Assembly (NCBI RefSeq): GCF_019263705.2
Contig: NZ_JADQDK010000001.1
Span: 124,001-188,000 of the forward strand
DNA: 64,000 nucleotides
DNA from: Pseudonocardia abyssalis
GTDB taxonomy: Bacteria; Actinomycetota; Actinomycetes; Mycobacteriales; Pseudonocardiaceae
Reading direction: 5' to 3'
The notes beneath the pieces are model-generated. The model was not told where the DNA came from, searched no databases, and saw only the letters and a list, made by a program, of their open reading frames with translations. The translations under genes were made by a program, and so were the position numbers. Positions 9,354-41,697 of this stretch are shown here, one piece after another (position 1 is the first letter of the stretch; each line of letters begins with the position of its first letter).

Positions 9354-9419
9354 CATGATCGTCGGAAGTGGTGCAGGGAGGTCACGGATGGCACGTTCCC
9401 ACCACTTCTGGTGATCATG
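9354..9419. repeat. 60-bp palindromic element, copy A
   Basis: Fifteen-base arms at 9357-9371 and 9402-9416 form an imperfect inverted repeat, extended outward by CAT and ATG. The GATC-to-GATC distance is 60 bases, identical to the copies at 39091-39150 and 40091-40150. The core (9378-9395) is more diverged than in those copies. The TGA in the left arm ends the open frame from the decayed gene upstream. It lies between that remnant and the convergent ligC gene and could act as a terminator hairpin. Confidence 0.75.
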
Positions 9420-38232: not shown

Positions 38233-39057
38233 ATGAGGCCGCTCACGACCTGGCAGAAGCTGCGCCTCACCGTCACGCGGCGGTGGGACACCTCCGGTTT
38301 CTGGTACGGCTTCGCGATCTGGTTGCTCTGGCCGTTCACGATGTTCGGCACGAAGATCGGGTGGCGGGGCGGGGAGCACATCCCGCGCACCGGTGGTGCG
38401 CTGCTGGCGCTCAACCACGTCTCGTTCGCCGACCCGATCTTCGACGTCGCGTTCACCGTCTCGCACGGGCGGATGCCCCGGTTCCTGGCGAAGTCGGAGC
38501 TGTGGGACGTGCCCGTCGTGCGCTCGGTGCTGGGCAAGGGCGGCCACATCCCGGTCTTCCGGTCCTCCGCGCGCGCCGGCGACGCCTACCGCGAGGCCAT
38601 CGCGGCCGTGCAGCGCGGCGAGATCGTGGCGTTCTACCCGGAGGCCACCTACACCGCCGACCCCACCGGTTGGCCGATGAAGGCCAAGAACGGCATCGGC
38701 CGCATCGCGCTGGTCACCGGCGCTCCGGTCATCCCGGTCGCGAACTGGGGCACGCAGGACGTCCTGCCGCCCGGCACGAACGTGCCCCGGCTGTTCTTCC
38801 CGCGCCGCCGCGTCACGGTGGTGGCGGGCCCGCCCGTCGACCTGACGCGGTGGCTCGGCGGCCCCCGTACCCGCACCGCCCTCGACGGCGTCACGGGCGC
38901 GATCATGGCCGATGTCACCGCGCTGGTGGCGGGGATCCGCGGCGAGACGCCCCCGGCGGTTCCCTACGACCCGGCCACCGCCCGCACCGAGCTCCCGCCG
39001 TCGGGTCCGCCCACGGTGGCCGTCCCCCCGGTGGAGGAGCGCCCCACCGCGTCATGA
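38233..39057 (+). CDS. 1-Acyl-glycerol-3-phosphate acyltransferase family protein
   Basis: The 274-residue PlsC-type protein has the catalytic NHVSFADP (HX4D), the glycerolphosphate-binding FYPEATYT motif, and a membrane-associated N-terminus (GFAIWLLWPFTMFG). It acylates lysophosphatidate or a related acceptor. A CACAAT hexamer at 38221-38226 lies six bases before ATG 38233, suggesting leaderless transcription. Its TGA stop lies in the left arm of a palindromic element half-copy starting at 39053. Confidence 0.9.
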   Translation: MRPLTTWQKLRLTVTRRWDTSGFWYGFAIWLLWPFTMFGTKIGWRGGEHIPRTGGALLALNHVSFADPIFDVAFTVSHGRMPRFLAKSELWDVPVVRSVLGKGGHIPVFRSSARAGDAYREAIAAVQRGEIVAFYPEATYTADPTGWPMKAKNGIGRIALVTGAPVIPVANWGTQDVLPPGTNVPRLFFPRRRVTVVAGPPVDLTRWLGGPRTRTALDGVTGAIMADVTALVAGIRGETPPAVPYDPATARTELPPSGPPTVAVPPVEERPTAS

Positions 39058-39088
39058 TCGCCAGGAAGGGGACTGCCGTGTCACGGCC
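39053..39088. repeat. 60-bp palindromic element, half copy B1
   Basis: CATGATCGCCAGGA at 39053-39066 matches the left arm of the element at 40091, and GCCGTG-T-CACGGC (39075-39087) is a perfect small palindrome in place of the core. The right arm is missing, because the full copy B2 starts immediately after. The TGA of plsC lies in this arm. Confidence 0.6.
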
Positions 39089-39152
39089 GTGATCGCCGGA
39101 AGTGGCCCCCTGGTGTCGCCGGCGACACCTGCTGACCACTCCTGACGATCTC
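39089..39152. repeat. 60-bp palindromic element, copy B2
   Basis: Arms at 39091-39105 and 39136-39150 pair at 12 of 15 positions. The central GGTGTCGCCGGCGACACC (39112-39129) is a perfect palindrome. Every sub-element is exactly 1000 bases upstream of its counterpart in copy C. It lies between plsC and the DUF559 gene. Confidence 0.8.
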
Positions 39153-39210
39153 CGGGGTGGGTTCTCGCGTTCCGCCACGGGGCCGGGGTCGTGCGCGGCA
39201 TGCTCCGTCG

Positions 39211-40092
39211 GTGTCCCCGGAATCCGTCCTCGCACCGCTGCTCGCGAGGCAGGCGGGTGTGGTCACGCTCGGGCAGGCCGTCGCGGCCGGGGTGTCGGCG
39301 AGCTCGGTGCACCGGCGGGTGCGGTCGCGGGCGTGGGACCTGCTGCACCCGGGCGTCTACCTGGTCGGGGGGCACCGGTACACCGACGAGGTGCGGATCC
39401 GGGCCGCCTGGCTCCGGGCCGGCGGTGCGCCCGCGATGGTGAGCGGGCCCGCGGCGGCGTACTGGTACCGGATGCTCGACCAGGCCCCGGCCGTCGTCGA
39501 GCTGACGGTGCCGCGGCGTCGCCACCTGCGGCCGGCACCGGGGATGTCGGTCGTGCGCCGCGACCTGTCGCCGGTCGACCTCGTGATCGACCGCGATCTC
39601 CACCTGACCGCGCAACCCCTCACCGCGCTGGAGACGGCGCTGGCGCTGCCGGACGGGTCGGTGTTCCTCGACCGGGCGCTGCAGCGCCACGTCCGCTTCC
39701 CGACGCTCTACCGCGCCTACTGTCGCAACCTCGGCCGCCGGGGGTCGGGCGCGGCCGCCCGGATGATCAGCGCGGCCGCCGACCGGGCGGACTCGGCCGC
39801 GGAGCGCCTGCTCATCACCCTCCTGCGCGACGCCGGGATCACCGGGTGGGTGCTCGGGCACCCGTTCGGGCCGTGGCGGATCGACCTGGCCTTCCCCGCG
39901 GCTCGGCTCGCCGTCGAGGTCGACGGGTGGGCGTGGCACGTCGACGTCACCAGGTTCCGCAACGACCGGCGCAAGGGCAACGCCCTGCACCGCGGTGGCT
40001 GGGACCTGCTGCGCTACACCTGGCACGACCTCGACGGCAGCCCTGCCGACTGCGTGCGGGAGATCGTGGACTCGCTCCCGGCGGCAGCATGA
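39211..40092 (+). CDS. AbiEi-like/DUF559 (Vsr-fold nuclease) protein
   Basis: The 293-residue protein has an N-terminal winged-helix region (LLARQAGVVTLGQAVAAGVSASSVHRRV, then LLHPGVYLVGG) of the AbiEi antitoxin type. The C-terminal DUF559 domain shows E in DSAAERLL, D in WRIDLAFP, EVDGWAWH, and the basic NDRRKGNAL helix expected of Vsr-like PD-(D/E)XK nucleases. GTG 39211 is chosen because the extra upstream codons read as arginine-rich noise. The stop codon is inside copy C of a 60-bp palindrome, and copy B2 lies 60 bases upstream. Such proteins are numerous in actinobacteria and their function is unknown. Confidence 0.85.
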   Translation: MSPESVLAPLLARQAGVVTLGQAVAAGVSASSVHRRVRSRAWDLLHPGVYLVGGHRYTDEVRIRAAWLRAGGAPAMVSGPAAAYWYRMLDQAPAVVELTVPRRRHLRPAPGMSVVRRDLSPVDLVIDRDLHLTAQPLTALETALALPDGSVFLDRALQRHVRFPTLYRAYCRNLGRRGSGAAARMISAAADRADSAAERLLITLLRDAGITGWVLGHPFGPWRIDLAFPAARLAVEVDGWAWHVDVTRFRNDRRKGNALHRGGWDLLRYTWHDLDGSPADCVREIVDSLPAAA

Positions 40093-40153
40093 TCGCCGGG
40101 AGTGGTCGGGAGGTGCCGCCGGTGACACCGCGCCGCCACTCCTGGCGATCATC
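40088..40153. repeat. 60-bp palindromic element, copy C
   Basis: Arms at 40091-40105 and 40136-40150 pair at 14 of 15 positions, the best of the three copies. The core at 40112-40129 matches copy B2 at 16 of 18 positions. The TGA of the DUF559 gene is the TGA of the left arm (40090-40092). Confidence 0.85.
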
Positions 40154-40204: not shown

Positions 40205-40732
40205 ATGGACGAGGGCTGGTTCGTGCGGGACCTCGCGGTCACCGCTGTGGTGTTCGGGACGGCGGCGTTCGTCTGGTTCGGGTGGGGGCAGGAGGACCCG
40301 CCGGCGCGCTGGCGGGCGTGGCTGGGCGCAGGCTCCGGGCTCGGGCTGCTGGTCGCCCTGGTCGGCGGGTTCCTGACCTGGCAGAACTGGGGTCCGGACT
40401 CGGTGTTCGCCGTGGCGCAGACCCGTCGCGCGTTCGGCGTCGTCTGCGGCATCGAGTTCGGGCTGGCCGGGCTCGGGGCGGCGGTGTTCGGCGTCCGGAG
40501 GCGGCCGCGGTGGATCGCCCCGTGGATCGCGTTCGTCGTGGGCGCCCACTTCGTGCCGCTGGCGTGGATCTTCCGCGACCCCGGGCTGGTGGTCCTCGCC
40601 GTCCTCGTCTGCGCCGCCGCGGTGGCCGCGGTGGTACTACGCGGGCGATTCACCCCCAGCGCGGTGACCGGCGTCGGGGCCGGCACCGCGCTGCTCGTGT
40701 TCGGGGCGCGCGCCGCGCTGCTGGTCGTCTAG
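40205..40732 (+). CDS. Hypothetical membrane protein
   Basis: This 175-residue protein has about six hydrophobic segments, alternating with WFGWGQED and FGVRRRPRW loops. No family is recognised. CACCGT at 40193-40198 lies six bases before ATG 40205, a leaderless arrangement. It lies directly after palindromic copy C and overlaps the desaturase gene tail by four bases. Confidence 0.75.
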   Translation: MDEGWFVRDLAVTAVVFGTAAFVWFGWGQEDPPARWRAWLGAGSGLGLLVALVGGFLTWQNWGPDSVFAVAQTRRAFGVVCGIEFGLAGLGAAVFGVRRRPRWIAPWIAFVVGAHFVPLAWIFRDPGLVVLAVLVCAAAVAAVVLRGRFTPSAVTGVGAGTALLVFGARAALLVV

Positions 40733-41667
40733 ACGCGGGCCAGCTTCTCCAGGCGCTTCGTGGTGGGCCAGCGGACCGAGCGGGCCCAGCCGAGCTTCTC
40801 GAAGGCCCAGATCACGCGGGCGGAGATGTCGACCTGGCCGCGCTGCACGCCGTGCCGGGCGCAGGTGGGGTCGGCGTGGTGCAGGTTGTGCCACGACTCG
40901 CCGAAGCTCAGGACGGCGAGCGGCCACACGTTGCGGGAGTGGTCGCGCGAGGCGAAGGGCTGCTCGCCGATCATGTGGCAGATCGAGTTGATCGACCACG
41001 TGACGTGGTGCAGCAGCGCGACGCGCACCAGCCCGCCCCAGAAGAACGCGGTGAGCGCGCCGGCCCAGGACAGTGTCACCAGACCGCCGATGACGCCCGG
41101 CAGCACGAGCGAGAGCGTGGCCCACAGGACGAACAGCTTGTCGACGCGCACGATGTCGCGGTCGGCGAGCAGGTCGGGGGTGAAGCGCTCCTCGTTGGTC
41201 TGGTCGCGGCCGAACAACCAGCCCATGTGCGAGTGGTAGAAGCCCCTCGCCAGCGCGCGCGGACCGGTACCGAACAGCCACGGGGAGTGCGGGTCGCCCT
41301 CCTTGTCGGAGAACGCGTGGTGGCGGCGGTGGTCGGCCACCCAGTCGATGACGGGCCCCTGCAGTGCGAGGCTCCCCGAGATCGCCAGCGCGACGCGCAG
41401 CGCCCGGTTGGCCTTGAACGAGCCGTGCGTGAAGTAGCGGTGGAACCCGACGGTGATGCCGAGGCCGCTGACGACGTAGAAGGGGAGCGCGATCGCGATG
41501 TCGACCCAGCTCAGGCCCCAGCCCCAGGCGAGGGGCACGGCGGCCAGCAGCGCGAGGAGCGGGGTGATCACGAAGACGTAGACGGCGACGGTCGACGCGA
41601 CCCCGCGCTGCCCGTCGAGGATCGGCTTCGGACCGGCAGACCGGGTGGGGCTCTCGGCTACGGACAT
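40729..41667 (-). CDS. Acyl-CoA/acyl-lipid desaturase (stearoyl-CoA desaturase type)
   Basis: The 312-residue membrane di-iron enzyme has three histidine boxes, HRYFTH, HRRHH and HNLHH, plus four hydrophobic helices. It introduces a delta-9 double bond into stearoyl chains. The product is the usual substrate of Cfa-type methyltransferases such as those at 32695-35375, so the two loci may act in sequence (inference). ATG 41667 follows a GAGGT ribosome site. A palindrome at 41698-41716 lies upstream. Confidence 0.93.
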   Translation of the reverse strand: MSVAESPTRSAGPKPILDGQRGVASTVAVYVFVITPLLALLAAVPLAWGWGLSWVDIAIALPFYVVSGLGITVGFHRYFTHGSFKANRALRVALAISGSLALQGPVIDWVADHRRHHAFSDKEGDPHSPWLFGTGPRALARGFYHSHMGWLFGRDQTNEERFTPDLLADRDIVRVDKLFVLWATLSLVLPGVIGGLVTLSWAGALTAFFWGGLVRVALLHHVTWSINSICHMIGEQPFASRDHSRNVWPLAVLSFGESWHNLHHADPTCARHGVQRGQVDISARVIWAFEKLGWARSVRWPTTKRLEKLARV

Positions 41668-41697
41668 GGGCGGCACCTCGGGTGTCGACGGAGGAAG

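Follow-up and report, generated by a model that had tools for sequence, protein, structure and literature searches.

A DUF559 nuclease gene bracketed by matching palindromes in Pseudonocardia abyssalis: a candidate two-part system with REP-like organisation

Why should a nuclease gene stand between two matching palindromes? The question is raised by a stretch of 64,000 nucleotides of the Pseudonocardia abyssalis genome (hereafter the window; contig NZ_JADQDK010000001.1, G000:C1:124001-188000 in our numbering, from a genome of 6.3 Mb), in which a DUF559 gene of the AbiEi-EDxHD type is enclosed by two 60-bp dyads. The initial annotation compared this arrangement with repetitive extragenic palindromic (REP) sequences and their REP-associated tyrosine transposases (RAYTs), and suggested that the nuclease could recognise or mobilise the palindrome. 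Here, comparisons within and beyond the genus lend good support to a cognate nuclease-palindrome system. We favour, with moderate confidence, a two-part DNA system in which an AbiEi-EDxHD nuclease would recognise a palindrome of 60-62 bp that is spread or maintained in a REP-RAYT-like manner.

Both dyads are GATC...GATC 60-mers at the places first described (Table 1). The plsC stop codon (39055-39057) lies in a half element, a partial copy beginning at 39056, and the stop of the nuclease gene (40090-40092) meets the right dyad. The 18-base palindromic core is perfect on the left, but its right-hand counterpart pairs at only 7 of 9 positions. The spacing of exactly 1000 bp is a coincidence: among the 43 doubly bracketed genes, the two elements start a median of 1005 bp apart (range 867-1296), and exactly 1000 bp apart in two. 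What stands out is a pair of arms at a fixed distance, not one arm; a single 15-base arm was not significant in the window (14 matches at no more than three mismatches, against 12.58 expected).

Palindromes beside the nuclease genes

A scan of our genome collection for the dyad pattern returned 18 stretches, all from Pseudonocardia. With R1, a covariance model of the window's palindrome type, this type was detected at E<=0.01 in at least 51 of 62 genomes of the genus, and nuclease homologs at E<=1e-30 occur in 56 of the 62, often several per genome. Enrichment was measured on 80 genes (the best 83 homolog rows, from which a fragment and two G015 twins of G014 genes were removed), each with 5 kb on either side or less at contig ends. 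A model-free scan (GATC...GATC, any length from 52 to 74 bp, pairing of at least 68% across the outer 26 positions, no more than 330 bp from the gene) found a palindrome beside 65 of the 80 genes, upstream of 56, downstream of 52 and on both sides of 43, against 2 of 1597 background windows of equal size taken from the same regions more than 900 bp from the gene. These counts bear out a clustering of the copies beside DUF559 genes, for which the initial annotation had proposed to search. All 120 palindromes found beside genes measure 60-62 bp. A second palindrome score gave 54/80 upstream and 41/77 downstream, against 39/1741 background windows, and a control shifted by 2 kb placed 0/68 above the threshold, against 40/77 at the gene. 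Most R1 elements within the 80 regions are found no more than a few hundred bp from the gene; the ones beyond 1 kb are L153:8570, L193:2781, L196:7436 and L210:4601, with weak ones at L143:2967 and L140:8928. Chance is ruled out by the background windows, the 2-kb shifted control and shifted controls outside the genus (0/30 and 0/23).

The brackets are also matched to the gene that they enclose. Their inner arm varies from gene to gene, with AGTGG, TGCGGT, CGGGAC, GGCGCG and GGATCGGGA types, and is common to the two brackets of one gene. The distance between arms is 0.194 for the same gene, against 0.534 for different genes and 0.526 for paralogs of the same genome. For 36 genes, the closest of the 43 downstream copies is the gene's own, and the own copy beats those of same-genome paralogs in 40 of 40 contests. 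Protein and palindrome distances are correlated over 65 genes (Mantel r 0.461, a value reached by 0 of 999 permutations), the mean arm distance rising from 0.31 to 0.53 below a protein distance of 0.45 and staying flat beyond.

Outside the genus, homologs at E<=1e-30 were found in 62 of 151 genomes of another family of the same order. At 30 loci of this family, flank likeness had a median of 32.5, the medians for different genes and for the shifted control both being 12, and the own downstream flank ranked first in 18; the claim for this family is drawn from these medians and rank 1 counts, only 1 of the 30 loci passing the 99% cut-off, which is high (46). By palindrome score, 16 of the 30 had an element upstream, 17 downstream and 12 on both sides, compared with 6 of 180 background windows, and gene-specific hairpins such as GTGTATCCGAGCCCGG or GGGAAGGATCGGCCCC were observed. 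In a sample of the phylum, 12 of 28 loci exceeded the 99th percentile of different-gene pairs, with the caveat that L245 and L224 are repeat arrays and not clean dyads, and that L230 is weakly self-complementary.

Dispersed copies and gene-free junctions

Both palindrome types of the P. abyssalis genome occur well away from their genes. The window gene's type was found at eight strong places, including its two brackets, and at three weaker ones at E<=0.01; one of the eight, C1:3240335, carries a TGCGGT inner arm. The bracket pattern of the second nuclease gene, a paralog described below, recurs at 21 distinct places including its two brackets, against none for the reversed-pattern control. The full sequence of seven of these copies shows a 60-bp GATC...GATC dyad, in most cases with CAT/ATG outside, and four close doublets 92-192 bp apart (C1:366685/366807, 3528432/3528524, 4745924/4746016 and 5007520/5007712) resemble REPINs (REP doublets forming hairpins). 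Dispersed R1 copies are extragenic: 3 of 46 lie inside a long reading frame supported by third-position GC content (GC3), compared with 128 of 200 control positions. None of these 46, which exclude the known brackets (two own, two in G026 and two in G042), has a homolog of the nuclease in its region.

For seven P. abyssalis copies, plus an eighth that has a tandem neighbour, the corresponding sites of five relatives were examined. At C1:2815538 the empty site in G010 is clean, reading CCGTCATG followed by CGTGG, against CCGTCATG-ATC...GAT-CATGAGTGG in P. abyssalis, and CATG flanks the insert on either side and is present as a single copy in the empty site. The paralog-type copy at C1:840687 (L365), which reads CCTGAGCATGATC...GATCATGAGG, is missing in G026, G018, G010 and G023, where the stop and start codons overlap (CCTGATG). 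The genes around it are, as we read them, mraY and murD, and the palindrome appears to supply the start codon of the murD-like gene. The copy at C1:5819637 is missing in G026, G010 and G023, where stop and start again overlap (GGATGA), and the site is filled in G018. This junction, which carries an A-type element in P. abyssalis, holds two tandem elements of another type in G052 (L278) and is a possible insertion hot spot. C1:133354, C1:2755467, L366 and L368 were not clean as empty sites, and L367 had no counterpart with flanks. Read in this way, the solo copies are best described as insertions, each of the three legible sites being a stop/start junction; in our reading of the frames, the element ends would supply the start codon at all three and at C1:2815538 the stop as well.

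Thirty plsC loci of the genus were read. At nine (our own, G026, G018, G023, G010, G052, G016, G036 and G020) the nuclease gene adjoins plsC, and the R1 model detects both brackets in seven of these and one bracket in G016 and G036. Gene remnants occur at five (G048, G050, G034, G008 and G046) and a solo palindrome at four (G002 and G056 by model, G033, where it is short, and G047, where it is degenerate, by eye), whereas in five others (G045, G061, G003, G049 and G014) plsC and the desaturase converge across a gap of 62-78 bp with neither palindrome nor gene; seven remained unclassified. Comparison of loci with and without the block thus yields gene-free junctions, some with a solo palindrome and some without, so that the locus is not one at which the gene is conserved with no empty sites, the case named beforehand as speaking against a mobile unit. 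One of the seven unclassified junctions, that in G042 (L126), carries a palindrome followed by about 1 kb without a nuclease match.

The same loci could be read as homing, the palindrome being the homing site: the nuclease would cut gene-less palindrome alleles, repair would copy the gene in between two palindromes, and solo palindromes would be targets or scars. The EDxHD domain is common to a homing endonuclease, and the plsC junction is seen both with a solo palindrome and, at the nine loci, bracketed. We nevertheless regard this reading as unlikely. Palindromes outnumber genes in P. abyssalis (8 and 21 places for two genes) and sit at junctions that are palindrome-free in relatives, so that homing alone fails to explain their multiplication, and the genes are mostly kept at shared sites. 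As regards the interruption of a target by a homing endonuclease gene, the gene here stands between two whole palindromes, at a junction seen empty, solo and bracketed.

Enzyme, palindrome and known systems

In the 311-aa frame, Pfam matches AbiEi_4 (residues 25-70) and DUF559 (residues 210-307), with MTES_1575 below its cut-off and a weak helix-turn-helix; no Y1 transposase was matched by Pfam in this protein at E<=0.1. PADLOC gave a match to AbiEi (1.6e-17), and the predicted structure matches both AbiEi and Vsr/EDxHD proteins, including I-Bth0305I. The Vsr-like catalytic domain with its conserved E, D, H and D is present, these residues having been checked on all 80 genes, and dN/dS (nonsynonymous over synonymous substitution rates) of 0.17-0.27 in five pairs indicates purifying selection. 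No known transposase family was identified between the palindromes, where the AbiEi-EDxHD frame is the sole identifiable gene. At least 1110 homologs were found at E<=1e-10, the named ones mostly as "AbiEi-family antitoxin" or "very-short-patch-repair endonuclease". The window gene and its paralog (C1:4111389-4112264, 52% identical) are the only homologs at E<=1e-30 in their genome; five weaker ones, with 29-36% identity, lie at C1:5248583, 3197356, 5883794, 4271783 and 976337. Alignment A2 comprises 61 of 74 stop-free frames of at least 270 aa, and among the 13 omitted one has a GATC palindrome. Candidate specificity-setting residues were rejected: only positions 57 and 92 separate AGTGG-type (4 proteins) from TGCGGT-type proteins (8), which is too few.

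The fullest members of the palindrome family read CATGATC...GATCATG, about 66 bp. Across sixty 60-mers, every GATC position is paired, as the selection requires, and pairing reaches 0.87-1.0 at positions 13-17 and 0.83-0.98 at positions 23-27; G14 is invariant, and other positions are mostly 0.47-0.73 paired, except position 7 at 0.88. The inner halves pair at 0.758, against 0.421 with right halves shuffled between elements, a figure to which the selection rule itself (68% pairing or more across the 26 outer positions) contributes. Covariation lies above all shuffles in three of five measures and not in the other two, and several outer positions vary without the pairs being kept. The spacing of the paired blocks, roughly one helical turn, points to recognition of double-stranded DNA by a symmetric protein. 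Unpaired outer variation and block-wise pairing together favour such double-strand recognition over a structural RNA or a single-strand hairpin intermediate, a question that the pairing pattern does not settle. Tandem palindrome pairs with starts about 70 bp apart were noticed in Pseudonocardia sp. CNS-004 (L038, L039, L042, L044 and L047), and at L165, L169, L153 and L172 a single nuclease gene is flanked on each side by an array of several cognate palindromes.

These properties bear on another alternative, autoregulation or insulation, in which the upstream palindromes would be AbiEi-type operators and the downstream ones terminators, the dispersed copies being regulatory or spread otherwise. 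AbiEi and Rv2827c bind inverted repeats and autoregulate, according to one report (PMC7319586). Six dyads fold as RNA more stably than their shuffles (z -3.2 to -9.2), and in 37 of 52 cases the stop codon of the nuclease gene touches or directly adjoins the element downstream of it. What does not fit a set of operators is that a matching copy lies downstream, that dispersed copies are many and come and go between species, and that one is placed at the stop/start junction of murein genes; moreover, no AbiEii nucleotidyltransferase toxin gene adjoins the own copy, whose neighbours are the acyltransferase, DUF7010 and desaturase genes. We hold this alternative to be improbable. Terminators as the whole story are ruled out, the sequences being gene-specific and the copies coming and going.

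Under the two-part system that we favour, the protein would bind its palindrome as double-stranded DNA in a dimeric form, the GATC ends being universal and each arm having two inner blocks, separated by roughly one turn of the helix, that carry the gene's private specificity. The nuclease may then cut at CATG-containing sites, at palindrome ends or at both, leading to insertion of palindromes at CATG; in the three legible cases insertion would have fallen at stop/start junctions, where the ends of the element provide the stop (TGA) or the start (ATG). Over long times the gene would be held between two cognate palindromes, with solo palindromes scattered elsewhere. Movement of the palindrome by the nuclease is the mechanism we consider likeliest. 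Of the proposal that the nuclease recognises or mobilises the palindrome, the link itself has held, through the clustering, the gene-tracking sequences and the gene-free plsC loci, and mobilisation is still a deduction. Only tentatively would we go further and propose a new class of mobile-DNA enzymes, with a Vsr-fold homodimer on a private 60-bp dyad, a CATG cut with a 4-nt stagger and insertion of the dyad.

A number of observations weigh against this reading. The GATC scan found no palindrome at 15 of the 80 genes and one side only at 22, some of these genes having brackets of another or a degenerate type. Part of the Mantel correlation could stem from whole blocks sharing descent, because the correlation is carried by pairs under a protein distance of 0.4 and is flat beyond, and gene conversion between brackets could explain part of their match; with either cause, the brackets of one gene stay alike while types diverge. 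AbiEi-type autoregulation through inverted repeats (PMC7319586) could explain the upstream bracket alone. Two of the four solo plsC palindromes were assigned by inspection only. Among the insertions, only C1:2815538 is fully clean, and since CATG is itself palindromic, a 4-bp duplication there is indistinguishable from insertion within CA/TG; C1:840687 and C1:5819637 are less clean, the latter having extra sequence between the upstream stop and the element. The 80 genes occupy 33 sites in clusters of up to 13 genomes, and genes kept at one site over many species imply that the block itself seldom hops. Wide dispersal is not universal: for one genome of the other family, the palindrome type was located only at the bracket and a single additional place. 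In G020 (L323-L342), many dispersed copies share about 20 bp of extra sequence on each side, which implies that a unit larger than 66 bp has spread there.

Strict pairing of gene and copy is ruled out by G020 and G036, in which R1-type copies are many and the fetched homologs are bracketed by other types (2 of 2 and 4 of 5, respectively), so that copies can exist there without an intact cognate gene. G013 and G032 also speak against simple pairing, as they carry R1-type palindromes with no close nuclease homolog detected at E<=1e-30. A further alternative is the nuclease as a guard, cutting or taming own-type copies of miniature elements moved by an unrelated transposase: R1-type copies occur in G020 and G036 without a fetched gene of that type, and the genes themselves persist under purifying selection. 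The own-type bracketing of each gene is left unexplained by such a role. Moreover, R1 copies are missing in 4 of 6 genomes without a homolog (E<=1e-30), against 7 of 56 with one (p 0.007), the opposite of what a guard predicts, R1 being one type only. We consider the guard very improbable.

The favoured two-part system can be set beside several known ones. REP palindromes are described as extragenic and dispersed, occurring as singlets and doublets with a specific enzyme gene nearby (PMC3116915). The present palindromes share this organisation, being extragenic and dispersed, many per genome (not in every lineage), in singlets and doublets, with an own-type enzyme gene nearby; apart from G020 and G036, the gene occurs with palindromes of its own type. 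The resemblance to REP-RAYT noted at the outset therefore holds for the organisation but not for the protein, which matches other families and folds (AbiEi, Vsr/EDxHD). RAYTs are tyrosine transposases of the Y1/HUH type, whereas here an AbiEi-EDxHD nuclease is found with palindromes of 60-62 bp and GATC ends. RAYTs are kept in place over long times.

Miniature inverted-repeat transposable elements (MITEs), with their insertion sequences, offer another comparison: the palindromes are likewise short, extragenic, present or absent between species and possibly flanked by a 4-bp target duplication. They differ from MITEs in lacking a known transposase in the frame between them, and in that two whole palindromes surround the gene instead of one terminal repeat at each end. 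The AbiE type IV toxin-antitoxin system shares the AbiEi fold and differs in that here a nuclease domain is added, no AbiEii neighbour is present and the matched palindrome also occurs downstream and dispersed.

I-Bth0305I, an EDxHD enzyme, forms a dimer on its target of nearly 60 bp, according to a review (PMC3943268), and by analogy with this relative the agreement with dyads of 60-62 bp is striking. A DUF559 gene has been placed in the EDxHD family in another report (PMC9403480). Shared with the homing endonuclease I-Bth0305I are the catalytic fold, the active-site residues and perhaps the length of the target. That enzyme, however, is catalogued as a mobile intron protein; the present gene is free-standing, has an additional AbiEi DNA-binding part, is bracketed by two palindromes and is accompanied by dispersed solo copies. 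No link between such a nuclease and a palindrome was found among the titles and abstracts listed in searches of open-access literature, and on that basis the nuclease-palindrome pair appears to be undescribed. It lacks the RAYT enzyme and has only the catalytic domain and perhaps the target length in common with EDxHD homing endonucleases; its organisational logic has a precedent in REP-RAYT.

The P. abyssalis locus and its significance

The features of the window are compiled in Table 1. The start of the nuclease is uncertain and probably the GTG at 39211, giving a protein of 293 aa (gene 39211-40092), orthologs in L139/L140 beginning at the equivalent point; among the matches listed, homologs are mostly 284-310 aa, and the protein's own record is 284 aa. 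A third copy in the window, which the initial annotation did not include, lies just past the stop of a minus-strand frame that we take to be an ATP-dependent DNA ligase. It is found at the equivalent place in G026 and not in G010, G023 or G052; G018 has a copy about 160 bp further away. A search of the window against Rfam returned no match except one tRNA.

Table 1. Coordinates of the nuclease gene, its palindromes and neighbouring features in the window
Feature	Position	Strand	Remarks
AbiEi-EDxHD (DUF559) nuclease open frame	39157..40092	+	311-aa frame
AbiEi-like two-domain part, winged helix and second domain	39214..39780	+	residues 20-208 of the 311-aa frame
EDxHD/Vsr-type nuclease domain	39787..40089	+	residues 211-311; D243, E254, D256, H261, D270
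Upstream bracketing palindrome	39088..39153	.	60-mer 39091-39150
Downstream bracketing palindrome	40088..40153	.	60-mer 40091-40150, touches nuclease stop
Half copy CATGATCGCCAGGAAGGG	39053..39070	.	plsC stop codon inside
plsC-like acyltransferase, left neighbour	38233..39057	+	Pfam PF01553
DUF7010 membrane protein, right neighbour	40205..40732	+	
Fatty-acid desaturase	40729..41676	-	directly convergent with plsC where the block is missing
Solo copy, same palindrome family, CATGATC...GATCATG	9354..9419 (C1:133354)	.	just past the stop of a minus-strand frame

As the brackets reveal the likely recognition sequence, the 43 doubly bracketed genes are natural pairs for learning how EDxHD specificity changes, and binding and cutting can be tested directly. 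If the favoured reading is true, a large group of nucleases (at least 1110 homologs) would acquire a function, each member together with its predicted binding site, and REP-like palindrome systems would have arisen with unrelated enzymes. On the more tentative proposal of a new class of mobile-DNA enzymes, species-specific palindrome families would owe their movement to many genes that now bear the names "AbiEi antitoxin" or "very-short-patch-repair endonuclease". At gene junctions such as the presumed mraY-murD, the elements also appear to alter the stop and start codons.

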